From a virus: DNA of 21,562 nt. Where the stretch lies: the IMG/VR virus record IMGVR_UViG_3300005514_000018, positions 1-21,562 of that record; one strand, given 5' to 3'. Of this stretch, positions 2,967 to 21,562 are shown piece after piece; the first letter of the stretch is position 1; each line of letters opens with the position of its first letter. A model generated the notes under the pieces. The model was not told where the DNA came from. It saw only the letters and a program-made list of their open reading frames with translations, and searched no databases. The translations under genes were made by a program, and so were the position numbers.

Positions 2967-3794
2967 ATGGAAAACCCCTTAAAACAATACTTTAGGGCGC
3001 CTGGTGCTTTTATCAAGTTACCTAGTAAAGGTATGTTCTATTCAGTTCCTCCTAAACTTTCAGTAGAAGGGGAATTAGCAATTTATCCAATGACAGCAGA
3101 AGATGAGCTGTGGCTTAAAAATCCTGATGCATTATTAAATGGAGAAGCACTAAAGCGAATTGTTGCTAGTTGTGCCCCTGATATTCATAATCCAGAAGAA
3201 ACTACAATAGCCGATGCTGATGTTATTATGGTTACTGCAAGATTTGTTACATATGGTGATGATCTTACAGTTTCTAGCGAATGTCCAACTTGTCGTGAAA
3301 ATACAGATTATTCATTTAAACTTCCTGATATAATTGCTAACATTAGAGAAATGCCTGCGGAAACTTTTGTAAACATAAACGAACTAAAAGTATTTTTAAA
3401 ACCCTCAACAGTTGCATTACAAACAAAACAAGGAGTAGCGGCACTTCAGTATAGAATGTTGCTTAATAAACTTGCGGTTGAAAACAAAGAACCCGAAGAA
3501 AGGCAACAAGAATTATTAAAATCATTTGCTCATAATGTTACTACAATGCAATTTGAAACATTAAGAGAAAATATTGTTAAAATTGAAATGCCTGATGGTA
3601 ATCATGTTTCAAATAAAGATCATGTTAAAGACTGGTTGAGGAATATTAAAAAAGTTGAGTTTGATGCTCTAAATAGTAAAATTGACGACTTAAATAATTC
3701 TGGTACCGACATTGATTATAACGCAGAATGCCGGGCATGTTCGCACAAATATAATACCAGGATTAGCATGGATCCAATATCTTTTTTCGGATAA
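2967..3794 (+). CDS. 26: Baseplate hub subunit gp26 (tail assembly chaperone-like), zero-frame product
   Basis: This 275-aa protein resembles the T4 gp26 baseplate family. It acts in assembly of the central hub of the tail baseplate and may chaperone the tape measure. Recognisable stretches are the N-terminal FIKLPSKGMFY, then YPMTAEDELWLKNPDALLNG. Two Cys pairs follow, CPTC at residues 106-109 and CRAC at 255-258, which probably form a zinc ribbon closing the domain. T4 gp26 is shorter (208 aa). There is no clear Shine-Dalgarno before the ATG at 2967; the start is supported by the conserved N-terminus and the late promoter just upstream. Oddity: the last codons are TCT TTT TTC GGA TAA, containing a canonical -1 slippery heptamer. 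The -1 frame continues into a gp51-like sequence, so a minor longer product is likely. Confidence 0.85.
   Translation: MENPLKQYFRAPGAFIKLPSKGMFYSVPPKLSVEGELAIYPMTAEDELWLKNPDALLNGEALKRIVASCAPDIHNPEETTIADADVIMVTARFVTYGDDLTVSSECPTCRENTDYSFKLPDIIANIREMPAETFVNINELKVFLKPSTVALQTKQGVAALQYRMLLNKLAVENKEPEERQQELLKSFAHNVTTMQFETLRENIVKIEMPDGNHVSNKDHVKDWLRNIKKVEFDALNSKIDDLNNSGTDIDYNAECRACSHKYNTRISMDPISFFG
3782..3788 (+). promoter_or_regulatory. Candidate -1 programmed ribosomal frameshift site (T TTT TTC)
   Basis: The heptamer T TTT TTC lies in register with gp26 codons TTT (3783-3785) and TTC (3786-3788), matching the X XXY YYZ pattern. Slipping back one base re-pairs both tRNAs on TTT TTT. Translation then continues CGG ATA AGG into the downstream -1 frame, past the gp26 stop at 3792-3794. 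I see no strong stem-loop at the usual distance: only GATG/CATC at 3810-3823 and a six-pair stem at 3822-3837. An AGGA lies about 20 bases upstream. Confidence 0.7.
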
Positions 3795-4024
3795 GGCTTC
3801 TTGACGCAGGATGGGATAACATCGACTCGCTAGTTGAGGAGTTTTGGACCGAAAGCGATCAATTTACTAAAGGTTTATTAGAACTAGTTGTTAATACCGA
3901 AGGTACGGTATCATACGAAGATGTGACAAAAATGAGTGCCAAGGAAAGAAAACTATTAATTGAAGTTGTTAATGAACGTAATGAGAAATTAAATAAACAA
4001 ATGCAGGAAAATTCTAGAAAGTAG
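3788..4024 (+). CDS. 51: gp51-like baseplate hub assembly domain, read by -1 frameshift from gp26
   Basis: The -1 frame after the slippery site encodes 78 residues up to TAG at 4022-4024. It includes DSLVEEFWTESDQFTKGLLE, then SYEDVTKMSAKERKLLIEVV and a Lys-rich end. The pattern resembles the short gp51 hub-assembly proteins of marine T4-like phages, which normally follow gp26. The frame is open upstream only to a TAG at 3764-3766. It contains no ATG, GTG or TTG before GTG 3923, so it has no start that would give a useful protein. The simplest reading is a 352-aa gp26-gp51 fusion made by frameshifting at 3782-3788. In T4 gp51 is a separate 249-aa protein. The 3' end overlaps the convergent glycosyltransferase-like gene by 11 bases. 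The gp51 match is from memory; the frame structure is seen directly. Confidence 0.7.
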   Translation, partial: RIRLLDAGWDNIDSLVEEFWTESDQFTKGLLELVVNTEGTVSYEDVTKMSAKERKLLIEVVNERNEKLNKQMQENSRK

Positions 4025-6284: not shown

Positions 6285-6690
6285 CCTCTTGTATTGTTAT
6301 AGCACCGGAGTCTACTTCTGCTTCTACCGCGGCTTCGTTTATTGCTGTTAAATCTTCAAGTGATTCTTTTACTTCATCAACTGCTTCTTCTTCGGGTATA
6401 TCCAATACACTCATTTCAGGTTCACTAAGATTTGGAGGGTCAAGTGCTTTCCATAAATCCTCTAATGTAAACCCTGAATCAATCCCGCATGAGCGGTCAA
6501 TGTCAAATCCATCATCTACGTTTATTCCCTCTTTTTGAAGCCAATCTATAAACGCAGGATAATTTCCATCATCTTTAAACCCGGCTAAAGAAATAATGCC
6601 AGGTGCTTCACCTACGCTATTTGAATGCTTCCATGCTCGTTTAACTATACCTGATAATAGTTCTTCATCGTTTGTTCTTTCTACTGTCAT
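6274..6690 (-). CDS. Acidic protein of unknown function
   Basis: I do not recognise this 138-aa protein. It starts MTVERTNDEELLSGIVKRAW. The first ~80 residues look like a small folded domain (GIISLAGFKDDGNYPAFIDW). The C-terminal ~50 residues are very acidic and Glu/Ala-rich (IPEEEAVDEVKESLEDL, then AAVEAEVDSG), probably extended or helical. I chose ATG 6688-6690 because it overlaps the upstream gene's stop as ATGA; a longer frame to 6726 would intrude far into that gene. The 3' end overlaps the nuclease gene by 11 bases. The acidic tail could mimic DNA or bind a basic partner, but that is speculation. Confidence 0.7.
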   Translation of the reverse strand: MTVERTNDEELLSGIVKRAWKHSNSVGEAPGIISLAGFKDDGNYPAFIDWLQKEGINVDDGFDIDRSCGIDSGFTLEDLWKALDPPNLSEPEMSVLDIPEEEAVDEVKESLEDLTAINEAAVEAEVDSGAITIQEDAE

Positions 6691-7382
6691 GAAATTATTC
6701 CTTGTATCTTCCACGGTGTAAAGCAAATAGTCCCTAAACTAAAGTGATCTGCTCCATGGTCCTTATACATATTTATTGTGTCCTTCGTGTAAATTCCTCC
6801 ACCTGCTATAACGGTCACTGAGGGATACTTTGTCTTTATGAGCTTCAGAATCTTTAATGTGTAAGGCACTATCGCCGGTCCGCTCAACCCACCTTTCTCC
6901 GTTTGGATCGTGTTCGAAGCGTGTATCTGAGTGTATCCGCTCGCAAGGACGGATTCTATCTCTTGTTCTGTATACGTAGGGGGTATTTTGCAAATACACC
7001 ATTCTCTTTTATCCTCTGTCCATTTACTAAATTGGGTACTACTTATATTATTGCATGAACTATGCAAATTGTCAATATTTGGACAAGAAATGTTTATTTC
7101 TACAGATGCGTTACTAGGCACAATGTTATACATCTTGTGCCAGTCATTATCTTCTATTTGTGCTAAACTTAAAATTTCCCAGGGTTTGTGTTTACGTACT
7201 CCAACATGTATGCCCGGATTACGTAATCCAATTCTATTTATCCAGCCACCACGTGTTGGCCGTAAAGTCTTTACAATTTGTTTTAATCGTCCTGGTCTTG
7301 ATTCTAAAGTCCACGAACCTGTTACTGATATTGTGTTTTTAAACTTTAAATAATTTCCAAATGGTGCAGATATAAAGTACAT
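6687..7382 (-). CDS. Dihydroorotate dehydrogenase-like FMN protein (short)
   Basis: This 231-aa protein carries the hallmarks of the DHODH TIM barrel, which oxidises dihydroorotate to orotate with FMN in pyrimidine synthesis. They are SVTGSW near the N-terminus, INRIGLRNPGI, EINISCPN with the loop Cys, GGLSGPAIVPYTLKIL, VIAGGGIYT and the phosphate-binding end HGADHFSLGTICF. Cellular enzymes are 300 aa or more. Here the first ~50 residues (membrane or first barrel region) and parts of the middle are missing, so activity on dihydroorotate is not assured. It is tightly packed: its ATG shares a base with the previous stop (TAATG at 7384-7380) and its own stop overlaps the next start. A role in nucleotide supply during infection is plausible. 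Another FMN-dependent reductase or dehydrogenase function is possible. Confidence 0.7.
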   Translation of the reverse strand: MYFISAPFGNYLKFKNTISVTGSWTLESRPGRLKQIVKTLRPTRGGWINRIGLRNPGIHVGVRKHKPWEILSLAQIEDNDWHKMYNIVPSNASVEINISCPNIDNLHSSCNNISSTQFSKWTEDKREWCICKIPPTYTEQEIESVLASGYTQIHASNTIQTEKGGLSGPAIVPYTLKILKLIKTKYPSVTVIAGGGIYTKDTINMYKDHGADHFSLGTICFTPWKIQGIIS

Positions 7383-11951: not shown

Positions 11952-12569
11952 ATGCGTATTTTTGAAGTTATAAAATCGAATATTGATGTTGCCGTTTTTT
12001 ACGGCGGAAGATTTCAGCCAATGCATAAAGGTCACTATGGGCTATATCAATCATTAGTTGAGAAGTTCGGCCCTAATAACGTATTTATCGCAACCACTTT
12101 TGGCAAAAAACAACAACAAGCACATGCCGTAATGGACTTCGATGCAGATCCTTTTACGTTTGAAGAAAAGCAATTTATAATTAATACAATGTATAACATA
12201 CCAAACGAACGCATTGTTAATACACAACCATATAGACCTGATATGAGTCTAGTAGGGTTAAACAAAGAAAAAAATGCATTAATGCTTGCTTTTAGTGATA
12301 AAGATGCAGGTCGTCTTAAACCCGGTAATGTATTACGTAATTACGAACCTGGTATAAAATTAGAACCAAACTTCATTGACGGGAAAGAACATAGAGCATA
12401 CATTTATACATCAGCATTATTTCATGGCGGAGCAAATGCATCAGACTTTAGAAGCGGTATGCGAAAATTAGAATCTGATGATGCTAAGAAACAATTATTT
12501 GCACATTATTTTGGTAAGATGAATGATGCAGTATATAACTTAATTAATGAGAGATTAAATGGCAGGTGA
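11952..12569 (+). CDS. Nucleotidyltransferase-like protein (HxGH superfamily)
   Basis: This 205-aa protein carries the class I nucleotidylyltransferase signature GRFQPMHKGH (residues 19-28, His25 and His28), preceded by a hydrophobic first strand (VAVFYGG). This superfamily includes NMN adenylyltransferases and cytidylyltransferases, which transfer a nucleotide from NTP onto a phosphate. A C-terminal YIYTSALFHGGANASDFRSG may supply the second nucleotide-binding element. The substrate cannot be told from sequence. NAD metabolism, or activation of a sugar or lipid headgroup for the glycosyltransferase-like protein elsewhere in the window, are both possible. It heads a structural operon and overlaps the next baseplate gene by 11 bases, which is unexpected for a metabolic enzyme. 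Confidence 0.75.
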   Translation: MRIFEVIKSNIDVAVFYGGRFQPMHKGHYGLYQSLVEKFGPNNVFIATTFGKKQQQAHAVMDFDADPFTFEEKQFIINTMYNIPNERIVNTQPYRPDMSLVGLNKEKNALMLAFSDKDAGRLKPGNVLRNYEPGIKLEPNFIDGKEHRAYIYTSALFHGGANASDFRSGMRKLESDDAKKQLFAHYFGKMNDAVYNLINERLNGR

Positions 12570-15732: not shown

Positions 15733-16872
15733 ATGTCAGGATCAATAGAAAGTGGTATACCTAATCGCTATAAGACAGGTGCAGGATTATATAATAAAAT
15801 GTCCGGCATCTATATTGGCAAAGTAAAAAAGAATGAAGATAAAGAAAACCACGGCAGAGTCTGGGTATGGATTGGCTCAACTGGATCTTCTGAAGATGAT
15901 GAACGCTATTGGCTTCCTGTTGTTTATACTAGTCCATTTGCAGGAGCAACAGATCAATTAAAAGTATCACCAGGTAAAACTTATAAAGCCACACAAAAAA
16001 GTTACGGCTGGTGGGCAACGCCTCCAGATATTAATAACTATGTAATTTGTGCATTTCCTGAAGGTGTGCCGTGGGGTATATGGTTTTCTTGTTTATATCA
16101 AACCAGTACAAATCAAACAGTACCGGGTATTCCTTATGATACTACTACTGCTGGAGAGTTTCCGGCGGCTAACAAAAATAGATTATCGCAAGGTAAAAAA
16201 GATACAACATTCCCGCCACATGATATAATAAAAGCCGGACTTACTACCCAAGGACTAGAAAAAGATAAAGTACGTGGACTAACAACTAGTGGAGCAAGAC
16301 GAGAAAGTCCGAGTAAAGTATTAGGCATACTAAGTCCAGGACAACATCAGTTTGTTATAGACGACGAGGATCCTGATAGTGGTATACGATTGCGTACTGC
16401 TAATGGTGCCCAAATTTATATAAATGATACCAATAATTTTATCTACATTATTAATAAAGATGGTAGCAGTTGGGTTGAAATGGACGGTGACGGCCAAATC
16501 AATATGTATGCAAAGAATAATATTAACATACATAGTGAAGCCAATGTTAACATACATGCTAATCAAGATATACGTATGCAAGCAGATAATATTGTAGGTA
16601 TAAAAGCACTTGCCGATGTACATTTAGAAAGTGTTGGCAAAATGAATATCCAATCAGGTGATAATTTAATGATAACAACGGATGCAGATGGCAATATAAA
16701 ATGTGCAGGCGGATATAAAGAAACTGCAAGTAGAATTGACATGAACGGGCCACCAGCGACTGCCGCAACTAAATTAACACCTAATTCGTTAGGCGAAAAT
16801 AAAAATGTAACGTCTAGCATAGCAGTAAAAGTTCCAGAACACGAGCCGTGGAAAGGACACATAAATCAATAA
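15733..16872 (+). CDS. 5: Central spike protein gp5, without lysozyme domain
   Basis: This 379-aa protein has the gp5 layout. An N-terminal OB-fold (GIYIGKVKKNEDKENHGRVW, WLPVVYTSPFAGATD) would sit on the hub. After a linker, a C-terminal triple-stranded beta-helix shows near-regular alternating repeats (INMYAKNNINIHSEANVNIH, then MQADNIVGIKALADVHLESV) that would form the membrane-piercing needle. T4 gp5 is 575 aa and has a lysozyme domain between these parts. Here the linker (about residues 135-205) is too short and lacks lysozyme motifs. AAGGAA precedes the ATG. Its TAA shares a base with the following MORN gene (TAATG). A degenerate lysozyme-like protein is encoded 1.6 kb downstream. Confidence 0.85.
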   Translation: MSGSIESGIPNRYKTGAGLYNKMSGIYIGKVKKNEDKENHGRVWVWIGSTGSSEDDERYWLPVVYTSPFAGATDQLKVSPGKTYKATQKSYGWWATPPDINNYVICAFPEGVPWGIWFSCLYQTSTNQTVPGIPYDTTTAGEFPAANKNRLSQGKKDTTFPPHDIIKAGLTTQGLEKDKVRGLTTSGARRESPSKVLGILSPGQHQFVIDDEDPDSGIRLRTANGAQIYINDTNNFIYIINKDGSSWVEMDGDGQINMYAKNNINIHSEANVNIHANQDIRMQADNIVGIKALADVHLESVGKMNIQSGDNLMITTDADGNIKCAGGYKETASRIDMNGPPATAATKLTPNSLGENKNVTSSIAVKVPEHEPWKGHINQ

Positions 16873-18182
16873 TGTGGATAGGCACAGACTGTCAACAAGA
16901 CGAAGTGTTTGATAAAGACACTTACACGTGGCCAACAGGACAAAAATATACTGGCGAATTTACAAAAAATCCAAATACAAATAAAAATAATCCACCAATG
17001 ATTCCGCACGGCAATGGTACATGTGAATATCCGGACGGAAGAAAATTTGTTGGTACATTTAATTTAGGACAACCTGTAAAAGGAGAATGGAATGTAGCAA
17101 CAGATATAGTACAGGATAACAAAATGTATACTTCTGATGGCAGAGTATACGAAGGAAATTGGAAAGACGGTAATGCTAAGTTAACATTGCATACGGGTAC
17201 AATATATGAAGGTGTCTTTAAAAACGGAAAAATAATTAAAGGAACAATGACATATCCTTCTGGAAGGAAATGGAATGGTAAATTTGATGAAGATATGCAA
17301 CGATATATTCATGATCCAGTAAAAGAAACAATAGTACCTAGAGGTAAAAGAACATACTATGGAGAAGTTAATAAATTTGGCGAAGAAGATGGCATAGGAT
17401 ATTTTACTATCGAAGATGGTACACAAGGAGCAGGCGAATTTACTAACGGATGGTTATCGGGCATTTCAGTTTTACAAAGAGCTTCAGGAGAAACATATGC
17501 TATTGATAGAAAAGGCAACAGTAAAGAAGGACACGGCATTTATGTTTGGCCAGCAAAGAATGCATACGAAGAAGATACATGGTATATCGGAGAATTTAAA
17601 AACGCAAAACCAGAAGGGTTTGCAATATTCAAAACAAGTTATGGATATACATGGATTGGCGAAGTTAATAGATCGTGGATGCCAGTAGAAGGCCGCGGAA
17701 ATTGGTTTAATAGATATAATCAGCCTGTAAAATTGCCTATATGGATTGGTGGTGAAAAAAAGTTTGAAGGCTTTGGTACAAATATTGCTTCAAACGGAGT
17801 ATACTATCAAGGAGATTGGGTTAATGGACAACGACATGGCTGGGGTATTCATACTAAACCAGATGGATATAGATATGAAGGCGAATTTAAACACGATAAA
17901 AAACACGGCAAAGGAATATTTTTTAAGGCAAAACATAATAGTGTCTACGAAGGCGAGTTTGCTTATAACCTACCTAATGGTTACGGAATACGTTATAACC
18001 CAGAAGGCCCAGGCGGCCCAGTTATACATAGGGGAACATTTAAAAACGGGTTGTACTACGGAAAAGGAGAAATGCGATTTAGTGATTGCACATCCTTTTT
18101 TGGCACGTGGAACAACGGTAAATTAATTAAGGAGGATGTAAAACGATATGAAGAACACACAGGAACACAATACCCAACTTGA
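16872..18182 (+). CDS. MORN-repeat protein
   Basis: This 436-aa protein is built almost entirely of MORN-type repeats (G-x-G-x-x-x-Y/W-x-x-G-x-x-Y-x-G-x-W/F). I count about ten, for example YPDGRKFVGTF, GRVYEGNWKDG, GTIYEGVFKNG, YPSGRKWNGKF, GVYYQGDWVNGQRHGWGI, GYRYEGEFKHDKKHGKGI and SVYEGEFAYNLPNGYGI. MORN repeats form elongated beta-meander solenoids used for scaffolding, and in some systems for lipid or protein binding. I start at ATG 16872-16874 because it shares a base with the gp5 stop (TAATG); the frame extends a few codons upstream into gp5. Lying directly after the spike gene it is probably a virion or assembly protein, perhaps a fibre-like or host-contact element. This function is inference from position. 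Confidence 0.8.
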   Translation: MWIGTDCQQDEVFDKDTYTWPTGQKYTGEFTKNPNTNKNNPPMIPHGNGTCEYPDGRKFVGTFNLGQPVKGEWNVATDIVQDNKMYTSDGRVYEGNWKDGNAKLTLHTGTIYEGVFKNGKIIKGTMTYPSGRKWNGKFDEDMQRYIHDPVKETIVPRGKRTYYGEVNKFGEEDGIGYFTIEDGTQGAGEFTNGWLSGISVLQRASGETYAIDRKGNSKEGHGIYVWPAKNAYEEDTWYIGEFKNAKPEGFAIFKTSYGYTWIGEVNRSWMPVEGRGNWFNRYNQPVKLPIWIGGEKKFEGFGTNIASNGVYYQGDWVNGQRHGWGIHTKPDGYRYEGEFKHDKKHGKGIFFKAKHNSVYEGEFAYNLPNGYGIRYNPEGPGGPVIHRGTFKNGLYYGKGEMRFSDCTSFFGTWNNGKLIKEDVKRYEEHTGTQYPT

Positions 18183-18495
18183 AGCAGGTAATCTTAATAA
18201 CGGTATTGGCATCAAAAAGTATAAACTTAAAAAACATGCCGGAGTTTTTAAGCATAATATAGAAAACGGCGTAGGCATTACAGAATGGCCATCGGGTGCT
18301 AAACTATATGGTTATTTTAAAGATGGCACAATAAACAGTTTAGGACTTTTTATAACAAGTAATAAATTAAGATACTATGGTAAAATAAAAGATTTCAAGC
18401 CTGTTAATAATAAACATTGGTTTGATGATAACAACAATGCAGTTAATTTTACCTTGGAAGAGTCAGTCAATATATTTGCAAAAGAAATAAGTTAA
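18148..18495 (+). CDS. Short MORN-like protein
   Basis: This 115-aa protein begins MKNTQEHNTQLEAGN and contains two or three weak MORN-like units: GVFKHNIENGVGITEWPSG, KLYGYFKDGTINSLGLFI and RYYGKIKDF. It overlaps the end of the larger MORN gene by 35 bases in another frame. AGGAGG (18130-18135) lies 12 bases before the ATG, a strong if slightly distant ribosome site suggesting coupled translation. It may be a split-off C-terminal part of a once longer MORN protein, or a partner that caps or pairs with it. I see no slippery sequence in the overlap. Confidence 0.7.
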   Translation: MKNTQEHNTQLEAGNLNNGIGIKKYKLKKHAGVFKHNIENGVGITEWPSGAKLYGYFKDGTINSLGLFITSNKLRYYGKIKDFKPVNNKHWFDDNNNAVNFTLEESVNIFAKEIS

Positions 18496-18516: not shown

Positions 18517-19281
18517 ATGATAACAGTAGCACCAACAGTTGATTTTAGTATTTTTACAGCCTCAACGACTGTCGACACAACAACAAAGGCATTAATAACC
18601 AGTTTTTCATTAAGTACGGCCGGTAAATCGTTTATTTTATCGCAAACACGTTATCGCCCTGTAAGAATATATCAAAACGGATCATATCAACAAGGTTATT
18701 ATAATACTACTCTTGATTTTGAATATGGGCTAACCTCAACAGAAGCATACAGAGTATACGAACAAGATGTTGCAGATGCCGCAATATTTGTTAAAAACTT
18801 TTATCCCGACACTACAACATGCACCCAAAATCAATTTGATGTGTTAGTTAGTTTATATTTCTTTGAAAGAAATTTACGAACATTTATAGGTAATTCAGGT
18901 ACATACGATATACAAACTGCATTCTTATCTGGTACTGCTGAAAATTTTGCAAATATATTAATGGATACATCTGCTAACAGACAACGACATTTTAAGGAAG
19001 CAAAAATATATGCCTTAGGAGAGTATGGAGATGCGTTAACTACGGCGTGGCTTCGCAATGAAGGTATACAGTATATGCGAGCTAATTATCCGGATAATTT
19101 TCCTAGTGCGGCGAGCAGTCCAACGACCGAGCAAAAAAGGCAAGCTCGGTTATCCTATTACCGTGAAGTTCAACTTTGGCTAACAGGAATGACCGAGCTT
19201 GAAAAGCAAGATACAACTAACTTATATGATCAAGTTGTTGCAGGAACAATTGATCCTTTAAAGGCATTAATTGTTAAATGA
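18517..19281 (+). CDS. Lysozyme-like (GH24 fold) protein, apparently without catalytic residues
   Basis: The middle of this 254-aa protein follows the T4-lysozyme/GH24 pattern: RYRPVRIYQNGSYQQGYYN in place of the EGLRLKxYxDxxGxxTIGxGH region, then LTSTEAYRVYEQDVADAAIF and CTQNQFDVLVSLYFFERNL, which match the helical part. The active-site Glu aligns with Gln, the Asp with Asn or Gln, and GxGH with GYYN, so hydrolysis is unlikely. An N-terminal ~45-residue Ser/Thr-rich part and a C-terminal helical part (YYREVQLWLTGMTELEKQD) are extra. A structural or peptidoglycan-binding role at the baseplate is a reasonable inference, given that gp5 here lacks its own lysozyme. AAGGAA precedes the ATG. The gene ends in a 15-base convergent overlap with the lipoprotein gene. 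Confidence 0.55.
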   Translation: MITVAPTVDFSIFTASTTVDTTTKALITSFSLSTAGKSFILSQTRYRPVRIYQNGSYQQGYYNTTLDFEYGLTSTEAYRVYEQDVADAAIFVKNFYPDTTTCTQNQFDVLVSLYFFERNLRTFIGNSGTYDIQTAFLSGTAENFANILMDTSANRQRHFKEAKIYALGEYGDALTTAWLRNEGIQYMRANYPDNFPSAASSPTTEQKRQARLSYYREVQLWLTGMTELEKQDTTNLYDQVVAGTIDPLKALIVK

Positions 19282-20865
19282 AACTATTTTATTATTATTA
19301 TTATCTTCCCAATTTACCATATAATCCCATTCAAAAATAGTAACTTTACAATTACCAAATTCAGAAGTTCCAGGACCATCATTCCAAGTACCTAATTTTT
19401 TCTTTGGATTCTTATTTTTGAATATCATCTCTGCAAAATCTTCCCCAGAGCCATAATCATTTGGTCCATTTAGTGCCCAATTAGTAAAAAGCGGATTCGA
19501 ATTATCAAACCATCTCCAATCACCTTCACTACTCAAATCAGTTAATCCTATTCTTAATGTATACCCTGATACTTTATTGATTTTATCATTCAATTGGTTA
19601 TAAAAATAATTTGCAATAAATTCATTTTCTTCATTTCCTTCAATTTTCACAGGATACGAATTGAATTCTTTTGATAGATTTTTAGCTATTGACCAAGTAA
19701 CACACTTATTGGTTAATGCGTATGTATGGTTTTGATAAACCGTAAAATGTGAAAAGTGTTCATCAATATGTGGACGAGCCATCTCTAAGGATTCAGGCTT
19801 AGAAGGAATAACGGCCAGGATTTTCTTTTCGCCCCGAACACAACGGACACTGTATTCTTTCGACTTATCCTTTGTTTCATCAGTCAAGGTCCAAAATTGT
19901 TCATAACGGCTATCATCCGGATAATCTCCTTTTTCAGGCAAAGTCCAATCATTGAATCCTTCGAGATCCAGATTTTTGCAATATTCAACAGCACCATACC
20001 AATTAAGGTGGTAATCAAATGCTTCTTTCTGCCACATCAGCCTGGTTGTTGGTTTATTAGTTGTTGGTTTATTATTAGAAACGAGTTTCTCGGGCGTTTT
20101 ATTAACAACTTTTTTAGCAACAGACTTCCGTTTCTGTTTTTTATTCTTAATTTGTTCAAAGAGCTTGTTAGATTGCACAACCTGATTCATAGCAAGTGTC
20201 TGATTGTTCCTCTCAACTACTTGAATTCTATTTTCAAGAGTTTCGTTTTTCTTAGATAATTTTGCTATTGTTTCAGATTGTTCTTCAATGTAGGTATTTG
20301 CAGTTTTCCTATTTGCTCTGCAAGTTTCCATTTCATCCCGTGGAACTTTTATTAATGTCGACACTACAAAAGAATGTCCCATAAAACTTCCACCATGAAA
20401 GTTACTGTATCGTTCTAAATAGCGATCCTCGGTTGTTACATTTCCCATATATAATTCTGCTCTCATTTTAGCAAACGAATTACCTTGGGTCAATGTATCA
20501 ATTACACCGCCATTACCGCCAATACTAACATCTTTATGTTCTTCAATAACAGAAACATTAAGTCCACAGTAACGAGCAAACGCAATCATGGCATCATTAA
20601 ATGATTCATTTTTTGCATCTTTACGTTCTGAACGTCTTGCTGACATTCCAACAAAATAAAATGCATCACCTTCTTTTGGAGTTTTTCGCAACCAATCAGG
20701 TTCTATTGCAGGCTCAGTATGATCTAGTTGAGAATATCCTGATATTTTTACTTTGTTTATTTCTTGAGATTTTGCTTTTGGAGTAGTAGCCGTCGCAGTT
20801 GAACAACTAATTATAAACGGAAGGAGTAAGTATAAAATCTTATCCTTTATTGTTATATTTTTCAT
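19267..20865 (-). CDS. Lipoprotein with LPP20-like, DUF1566-like and C-type-lectin-like domains
   Basis: This 532-aa protein has a lipoprotein signal peptide: a charged start (MKNITIKDK), a hydrophobic core and the lipobox IISC with Cys21. The following Ser favours outer-membrane sorting. Residues ~45-185 resemble the LPP20-type lipoprotein domain (DWLRKTP, AFYFVGMSARRSERKDAKNE). Next comes a coiled coil (~195-250), then a Lys-rich linker with an NKPTT duplication. Residues ~280-350 match DUF1566/Lcl_C (RLMWQKEAFD, GFNDWTLPEKGDYP, YSVRCVRG). The C-terminal ~150 residues look like a C-type lectin fold (TWSIAKNLSKEF, WRWFDNSNPLFTNWALNGPN, GTWNDGPG). Such architecture is bacterial in style and rare in phages. 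It might alter the infected cell's surface. AAAGG precedes the ATG, and its 3' end overlaps the phage operon. Confidence 0.7.
   Translation of the reverse strand: MKNITIKDKILYLLLPFIISCSTATATTPKAKSQEINKVKISGYSQLDHTEPAIEPDWLRKTPKEGDAFYFVGMSARRSERKDAKNESFNDAMIAFARYCGLNVSVIEEHKDVSIGGNGGVIDTLTQGNSFAKMRAELYMGNVTTEDRYLERYSNFHGGSFMGHSFVVSTLIKVPRDEMETCRANRKTANTYIEEQSETIAKLSKKNETLENRIQVVERNNQTLAMNQVVQSNKLFEQIKNKKQKRKSVAKKVVNKTPEKLVSNNKPTTNKPTTRLMWQKEAFDYHLNWYGAVEYCKNLDLEGFNDWTLPEKGDYPDDSRYEQFWTLTDETKDKSKEYSVRCVRGEKKILAVIPSKPESLEMARPHIDEHFSHFTVYQNHTYALTNKCVTWSIAKNLSKEFNSYPVKIEGNEENEFIANYFYNQLNDKINKVSGYTLRIGLTDLSSEGDWRWFDNSNPLFTNWALNGPNDYGSGEDFAEMIFKNKNPKKKLGTWNDGPGTSEFGNCKVTIFEWDYMVNWEDNNNNKIVSFNN
20045..20074. 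repeat. Perfect 15-bp tandem duplication in the lipoprotein linker
   Basis: GTTGTTGGTTTATTA occurs twice in direct tandem (20045-20059 and 20060-20074). On the coding strand it duplicates the five-residue unit NKPTT in the linker before the DUF1566-like domain. It keeps the reading frame. Confidence 0.9.
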
Positions 20866-20883
20866 TTTGCCTTTATTTGCCTA

Positions 20884-20917
20884 AGTTTAAAAGAAAGGAG
20901 TGACCTAAGCCACTCCT
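20884..20917 (-). terminator. Intrinsic terminator after the partial lipoprotein-like gene
   Basis: On the - strand the 7-bp stem AGGAGTG/CACTCCT (20917-20911 with 20902-20896) with an 8-base loop is followed directly by TTTCTTTT. It lies 9 bases after the stop of the gene at 20926, a typical rho-independent position. It separates the two related lipoprotein-like genes. Confidence 0.75.
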
Positions 20918-20925
20918 GAGTGAGT

Positions 20926-21562
20926 TTATTGAGTTACAGGTGCCTCAAGTGGGCTAACTTCAGTTTGAAAAAAGTCATCATCGTTGATGCCTTCTTTTTC
21001 AACTATTTCCCAGAACTTAAGACTATTGACTGCCTGCTCTTGAGCGGCCGCCGTTACTGCATTACTTGCTTCTTGCTTTGCTTTAAAAACATTATGCTTG
21101 GCAGTATTACCAAATGCCTCAATAAAATGTTTCTTTGGCATTGACACAAGTGCAAAATACTTGTATCCTGGGCGTCCGACCATGTCGGCTTCACGCTCAA
21201 AATACCATTTAGTTGTACGAGCACCTTTAAGTACATTCATATGAACGAACTTATAATAGCCCCTTGAACCTATTGTTGGTGCAAGTGTAGCACCATCAAG
21301 ACCGAAACCTAATTCGGCTTCTTCATACTTTGCTTTTGCTACGGTACTCAAATACTCCATACCGGAGAACAACGCATCACGTTTCGCGGCACGTCTTGCC
21401 GATTTTTCAGTGGCGTAAAGTGAACTTACACCAGTAAAATAAATCAGATCTCCATCAAGCAATGGTTCATTCATTACCCACTCAGGACGATCAGATTGGT
21501 CTGGATACGTGATTGGTTTTAGTTGCTGAACAGTAGTAGTAGCAATTAAACTATCACTAACT
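20926..21562 (-). CDS. LPP20-like domain protein (partial, N-terminus outside window)
   Basis: The frame is open from the window edge to TAA at 20926 (about 211 codons). ATG 21472-21474 is probably internal, because RPEWV directly before it belongs to the conserved domain. The stretch DGDLIYFTGVSSLYATEKSA, followed by RRAAKRDALFSGMEYLS, parallels the other protein's AFYFVGMSARRSERKDAKNE. The two therefore share an LPP20-like domain and are probably paralogues in tandem. The later part (YKFVHMNVLKGARTTKWYFE, YKYFALVSMPKKHFIEAFGN) completes this domain, and the C-terminus is Ala/Gln- and Asp/Glu-rich. It lacks the lectin and DUF1566-like parts. A signal peptide cannot be judged because the start is missing. 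A terminator follows. Confidence 0.65.
   Translation of the reverse strand, partial: VSDSLIATTTVQQLKPITYPDQSDRPEWVMNEPLLDGDLIYFTGVSSLYATEKSARRAAKRDALFSGMEYLSTVAKAKYEEAELGFGLDGATLAPTIGSRGYYKFVHMNVLKGARTTKWYFEREADMVGRPGYKYFALVSMPKKHFIEAFGNTAKHNVFKAKQEASNAVTAAAQEQAVNSLKFWEIVEKEGINDDDFFQTEVSPLEAPVTQ

Follow-up and report, generated by a model that had tools for sequence, protein, structure and literature searches.

Organization of the A-B locus

The DNA analyzed here (the window, all 21,562 nucleotides of IMG/VR virus record IMGVR_UViG_3300005514_000018) represents 21.6 kb of a large T4-like phage from metagenomes, as identified by sequence comparison. It carries two tandem minus-strand genes, A and B, which form a unit located between the hub/lysozyme genes on one side and gp25/gp6 on the other and encode a conserved pair of predicted outer-membrane lipoproteins. 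Gene B (19267-20865, minus strand) is an intact open reading frame (ORF) for a modular lipoprotein of 532 amino acids, and gene A (20926..21562, minus strand) encodes an LPP20/FlgP-like lipoprotein without a C-terminal tip. Gene A is cut by the window edge, beyond which its 5′ part with the signal peptide and lipobox falls; its full length is 238 amino acids in a related contig (L004:5845-6561). The main feature of the pair is that the C-terminal tip of B is exchanged as a module among related phages, which lay beyond what the author of an earlier note on this DNA could see.

Residues 1-21 of B (20803..20865, minus strand) form a signal peptide with the lipobox FIIS-C(21), MKNITIKDKILYLLLPFIIS^C, followed by Ser at position +2, in agreement with the lipobox-bearing 532-residue protein described in that note. 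A strict lipobox rule (n-region with K/R, hydrophobic stretch, and [LVI][ASTVI][GAS]C) is passed by 21 of 25 sequences, and each of the other four deviates at a single position, with T at −3 or with E in the hydrophobic segment. In every lineage, both A and B have a signal peptide and a lipobox-like cysteine, including the complete A copies of L004, L006, and L007, each with a lipobox of its own. When one lipobox rule was applied to seven loci, 11 of 133 ORFs (≥90 amino acids) passed, all of which are A or B genes. The +2 residue in these lipoproteins is Ser, Thr, or Ala; under the Lol rule of E. coli, from which the host may differ, none of these is a signal for inner-membrane retention.

Downstream of the signal peptide, B contains an LPP20/FlgP-like domain in common with A (residues 53-180; 20326..20709, minus strand), as assigned by sequence comparison and by the topology of an AlphaFold2 (AF2) model, and a coiled-coil stalk (residues 181-248; 20122..20325, minus strand), which AF2 models as a helix at residues 176-243. 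The stalk is followed by an Lcl_C (DUF1566) domain assigned by Pfam profile (residues 270-340; 19846..20058, minus strand) and by a C-type lectin-like domain with a WND motif, assigned by Pfam profile and phmmer (residues 385-515; 19321..19713, minus strand). As the tip region of full-length B is not modeled confidently by AF2 (predicted local distance difference test score, pLDDT, about 30), the tip domains rest on sequence profiles. Lectin_C (PF00059) passes its cut-off in the window (28.2 against 22.6 bits), and the domain matches C-type lectins in the PDB at 5.5e-8 in phmmer. Regarding the calcium/sugar motifs (EPN or QPD plus WND), WND is found in the window and in L006, where EPN is also present, and the window has GPN. 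Lcl_C (PF07603) scores 30.2 in the window against a cut-off of 34.9 (36 together with its neighbors in a whole-frame search), and 37.1, above the cut-off, in the L006 homolog. As 19 residues of the L006 copy are missing from the window Lcl_C domain, the latter may be degenerating.

Homology between A and B extends over about 200 residues (tblastn 6e-7 with single sequences; hhalign 4e-17 with profiles), which bears out the proposal of two tandem minus-strand genes with a common domain. The proposal that this domain is LPP20-like is weakly supported by sequence and somewhat better by predicted fold. PF02169 (LPP20) is found in 3 of 12 A proteins with a best E-value of 0.009, below the Pfam gathering cut-off, and a Pfam search gave no PF02169 match in window A or B. 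The A model (mean pLDDT 67) consists of a strand, a long helix, a disordered insert, two strands, and then a helix, an arrangement like that described for FlgP, which is related to Lpp20 (PMC12222027). In Foldseek searches with this model, HP1454 of Helicobacter pylori ranked first in the PDB (E 2.3e-3, low TM-score); in a viral library, an "LPP20 lipoprotein" of an uncultured phage ranked first and a Campylobacter phage CP8 protein fourth, the phage LPP20 matches having E-values of 9.5e-5 to 5e-3 and low TM-scores. Because the sequence evidence lies below the Pfam cut-off, A and B are called LPP20-like here and not members of LPP20. The export signal, the A-B homology, the domain content, and the overall architecture of the pair are well supported.

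Occurrence of the pair among phages

At its 3′ end, B overlaps tail to tail by 15 bp (19267..19281) with a lysozyme-like ORF (18517-19281, plus strand), which converges on B. The same 15 bp are found in L007, and the overlap is 4-11 bp in the others. The earlier note had read this as an overlap with a baseplate operon; the overlap itself was confirmed, and A-B proved to be a separate minus-strand unit with a host-type promoter rather than a part of that operon. The junction near 19270 recurs in L003, L004, and L005 (99.9% identity over 8.3 kb), in L007 (96%), and in L006 (82%), i.e., in at least five other viral contigs of IMG/VR, which establishes contiguity across 19281, and the A-B pair is found in about 20 contigs. 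Recurrence at 82-99.9% identity rules out an assembly chimera near 19270. A degraded prophage edge, with homologs only in bacterial chromosomes, is ruled out as well, since two short-peptide-pattern scans of GTDB genomes (one for each of 84,980 prokaryote species), which distant relatives could escape, gave no relative of A-B. No point in favor of either explanation was found, and their probability is negligible. A tblastn search of 50,697 phage records likewise gave no relative of A or B at E 0.01, in line with the view that such a phage lipoprotein is unusual. In distant relatives, the order A then B is kept; where the contigs include enough flanking sequence, gp25/gp6 lies on one side and lysozyme-like/hub genes or, in some lineages, other genes lie on the opposite side. 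In the isolates PA5oct, SCTP-2, and Phosso, other genes occupy the stretch after the hub gene.

Exchange of the tip of B

The module that follows the coiled coil varies among related phages. B ends in Lcl_C plus a C-type lectin domain in the window and L006, in a laminin-G-type module (Laminin_G_3) in L015 and L016, in a second laminin-G type (Laminin_G_3, 83 bits) in L025, and in a module without a Pfam match in L007. The L007 tip appeared MORN-like by eye; this identity was not accepted, Pfam giving nothing and blastp against the window MORN protein an E-value of 0.005. DNA comparison of the window with L007 revealed 96% identity up to 19284, no match thereafter, and 92% identity from 20097, so that the exchanged stretch, with sharp boundaries in the DNA, is 19285..20096 (minus strand), where the two have no DNA similarity. 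For L015 and L025, identity is 93% as far as this region of B, beyond which the two sequences differ to the end of the gene. Between the window and L006, the tip has a synonymous divergence (dS) of 0.19-0.25, compared with 0.42-0.55 over the remainder of B and 0.55 in the LPP20-like domain, and the ratio of nonsynonymous to synonymous divergence (dN/dS) is 0.70 in the lectin domain versus 0.15 in the LPP20-like domain, all by an approximate method on this one sequence pair. As dS is lower in the tip, the two tips appear to have diverged more recently than the remainder of B. The C-terminal tip of B is thus well supported as a cassette exchanged between related phages.

Similarity to a structural protein of the cyanophage S-PM2 virion and to phrog_8510 was found for the L025 laminin-G module. 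With the patterns used, and with the context of the short contig L058 left out, the window and L015 tip modules were found in no other context in viral proteins. The L007, L015, and L025 loci end short of the tail-fiber genes. In L015, the laminin-G module of B is flanked by a direct repeat of 80 nt (91%), the first 63 nt of which are identical (L015:3271-3350 and 3763-3842). The tip as a target of a diversity-generating retroelement (DGR) was considered and rejected, as RVT_1 had no match in five contigs (fragments of up to 73.5 kb), in which the template repeat had no separate search.

Expression signals

Upstream of A and on the same strand, TTGACn-N16/17-TATAAT is present in 14 of the 14 loci examined that include that stretch (L025, which begins inside A, was left out of the count), against a chance expectation of about 0.1 per locus. 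The window contains no such sequence, and its virion genes are without such a promoter. This near-consensus sigma70 promoter is kept although the preceding gene differs, and its conservation upstream of A is well supported. A ribose-phosphate pyrophosphokinase gene lies upstream of A in L018, L020, L026, L029, and L034 (Pfam-confirmed in L018), and in this L018-type lineage a second promoter copy, TTGACA-N16-TATAAT, heads the same plus-strand gene cluster. The T4 late promoter TATAAATA was not found at A or B. From the sigma70-type promoter sequence, we infer that the pair would be expressed early.

A terminator-like hairpin, AGGAGTGGCTTAGGTCACTCCT followed by a T-rich run, lies between A and B (20896..20917, minus strand). 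Its eight pairs form in all six related sequences compared, and two of them are changed on both sides, compensatory changes that are supportive of the hairpin. The L018-type lineage, whose A and B genes overlap, lacks this hairpin; a search of the A-B locus in Rfam gave no match. Given the conserved hairpin between the two genes, production of A probably exceeds that of B in the window lineage.

These signals bear on two explanations of the pair that differ from a role at the infected cell. B might be a virion component, namely a receptor- or particle-binding tail accessory, considering that A-B lies beside the hub and gp25/gp6 genes and that the L025 module resembles the S-PM2 structural protein and phrog_8510. 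The signal peptide and lipobox conserved in both genes imply export and therefore removal from cytoplasmic virion assembly, and the opposite strand and sigma70-type promoter argue against late transcription shared with the virion genes, which makes such a component improbable. A moron, i.e., decaying, non-essential cargo from a host, would account for the 19 residues missing from the window Lcl_C domain and for the other genes that isolate relatives carry at this place. It would hardly be expected that the pair, the promoter, and (in six sequences) the hairpin are conserved over a divergence as deep as 37-40% identity in A between lineages, or that dN/dS is 0.10-0.15 in A and the LPP20-like domain between window-like sequences and L006; decaying cargo thus appears to be a poor candidate.

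Neighboring genes and phage affiliation

The best matches of the window portal are jumbo phages (Sinorhizobium phage Phosso, 52%; PA5oct group, 49%), as are those of the hub protein (Phosso, PA5oct group, Atu_ph07, and Salicola SCTP-2). Two adjoining MORN-repeat proteins are encoded in the tail-hub region (16848-18182 and 18148-18495, both plus strand); MORN (PF02493) matches the former with E 1.7e-20 and the latter with 0.017, below the cut-off. A dihydroorotate dehydrogenase-like protein (6687-7382, minus strand; PF01180, E 3.4e-16) overlaps its neighbors on both sides, and a nucleotidyltransferase-like protein with a GRFQPMHKGH motif is encoded at 11952-12569 (plus strand), where the Phosso gene at the same place is annotated as an adenylyltransferase. 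Directly upstream of A in window-like relatives is a gene for a 235-residue protein of phrog_28018 (L004:5052-5759), whose identity as a glycosyltransferase was suspected by eye and not confirmed.

Proposed function of the A-B pair

A and B would be exported, lipid-anchored envelope proteins, made early from a promoter for host sigma70 and apart from the late virion genes. Their LPP20/FlgP-like domain would probably lie at the outer membrane and may self-associate, and the hairpin would raise A above B. B would add a coiled-coil stalk and a ligand-binding tip of the lectin or laminin-G type that related phages swap as a cassette, which is what one would expect if the tip had to fit a variable ligand on the host surface. 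The most likely target of the tip would be the glycan or receptor at the cell surface that phages of this group use, so that neither additional phages nor progeny could adsorb to the infected cell or to its debris (superinfection exclusion). For exported lipoproteins that have a variable lectin-type tip and are probably transcribed apart from the virion genes, a role at the infected-cell surface fits best. Exclusion is the first choice because such a role of phage lipoproteins is established for Llp and Rtp45 (PMC9586334, PMC12685063), and because the L025 laminin-G module resembles a virion structural protein, so that tips and tail adhesins may draw on common parts. We consider an early lipoprotein pair that displays a replaceable tip on the infected cell, most likely blocking adsorption of competing phages, the leading interpretation, with a probability of roughly 0.4; the surface exposure of B, its ligand, and the exclusion role enter it as inferred elements.

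Several points weigh against this interpretation. Many lipoproteins face the periplasm, and the known exclusion lipoproteins are small (Rtp45 is about 6 kDa) and periplasmic, not lectins of 532 residues. B of L018, L020, L026, L029, and L034 has no tip and ends with the coil; as this whole lineage is tipless, the tip is not always needed. The low dS of the tip rests on a single sequence pair, and the tips alone would also fit adhesion or particle binding.

The tipless lineage fits well with a periplasm-facing arrangement, in which A and B would assemble beneath the outer membrane into a FlgP/LPP20-like ring or lattice that stabilizes the envelope, alters flagella, or controls lysis, with the tip binding peptidoglycan or envelope proteins. 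Known phage lipoproteins are also periplasmic (PMC9586334). A conserved periplasmic ligand is hard to square with the swapping of unrelated lectin-type tips, and this arrangement is considered rather unlikely. The same lineage speaks against a function in adhesion, in which the tip would attach infected cells to particles, to one another, or to uninfected cells, and progeny would thereby be freed near new hosts without exclusion. Domains of the C-type lectin, Lcl_C, and laminin-G types serve generally as adhesion modules, and the same module exchange would be expected; the literature searched contains no precedent, and it has been argued that random binding carries a cost in the open ocean (PMC8144416). 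Adhesion is considered a rather unlikely function.

Extending superinfection exclusion by A and B to the phage group, a family of T4-like jumbo phages may build a dedicated lectin display on the infected cell, in which A and B supply a FlgP/LPP20-like lipoprotein base that carries a stalk and an interchangeable ligand-binding tip evolving by cassette exchange like tail-fiber tips, with receptor blocking tracking receptor use; this broader proposal is speculative and somewhat doubtful. If true, superinfection exclusion would exist in a modular form displayed at the surface, with its specificity swapped like that of tail fibers, and across phages the type of tip would be predicted to correlate with that of the receptor-binding protein. 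The LPP20-like lipoproteins that are annotated in other phages without a function would then gain a possible one.

Comparison with known systems

There are separate precedents for LPP20 lipoproteins in phages, for exclusion lipoproteins, and for surface lipoproteins with a lectin tip. Their lectin-tipped combination with cassette exchange is not described in the literature searched, mostly outside subscription journals, and an earlier description could exist. The phage LPP20 lipoproteins (CP8 AGS81221.1; uncultured Caudovirales) are, like A and B, phage-encoded proteins with a lipobox, and share with A a putative LPP20-like fold. The CP8 protein, in contrast, is a single protein of 174 residues that adjoins a primase, has no stalk or tip, and shows weak sequence similarity to A/B; AGS81221.1 is probably the Foldseek match S5WJL7, because the two have equal length and a PF02169 match. 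FlgP, Lpp20, and HP1454 of Campylobacter and Helicobacter, which have an SHS2-like fold, resemble the AF2 topology of A, including the insert after the first helix and the C-terminal helix (PMC12222027). The resemblance of A comes with a low TM-score and a weak E-value; no flagellar genes were seen near A-B, and no lectin tips are described for these proteins.

Llp of phage T5 and Rtp45 of phage Rtp are outer-membrane lipoproteins of phages, as A and B are predicted to be, and A/B would have an early-type promoter. Both have solved complexes, face the periplasm, and block receptors, being small proteins whose effect comes from altering an outer-membrane protein (PMC9586334, PMC12685063), whereas B has 532 residues and lectin-type domains. 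Because size and likely topology differ, A and B are not assigned to this kind. An analogy to the tip is offered by the DGR-diversified proteins of Legionella and Treponema, which, according to work cited in PMC8144416, are surface proteins with a variable tip of the C-type lectin fold, the Legionella one being a lipoprotein. No reverse transcriptase was found in the five contigs searched, which are fragments, and the variation of B stands apart from that of the DGR proteins in being an exchange of whole modules.
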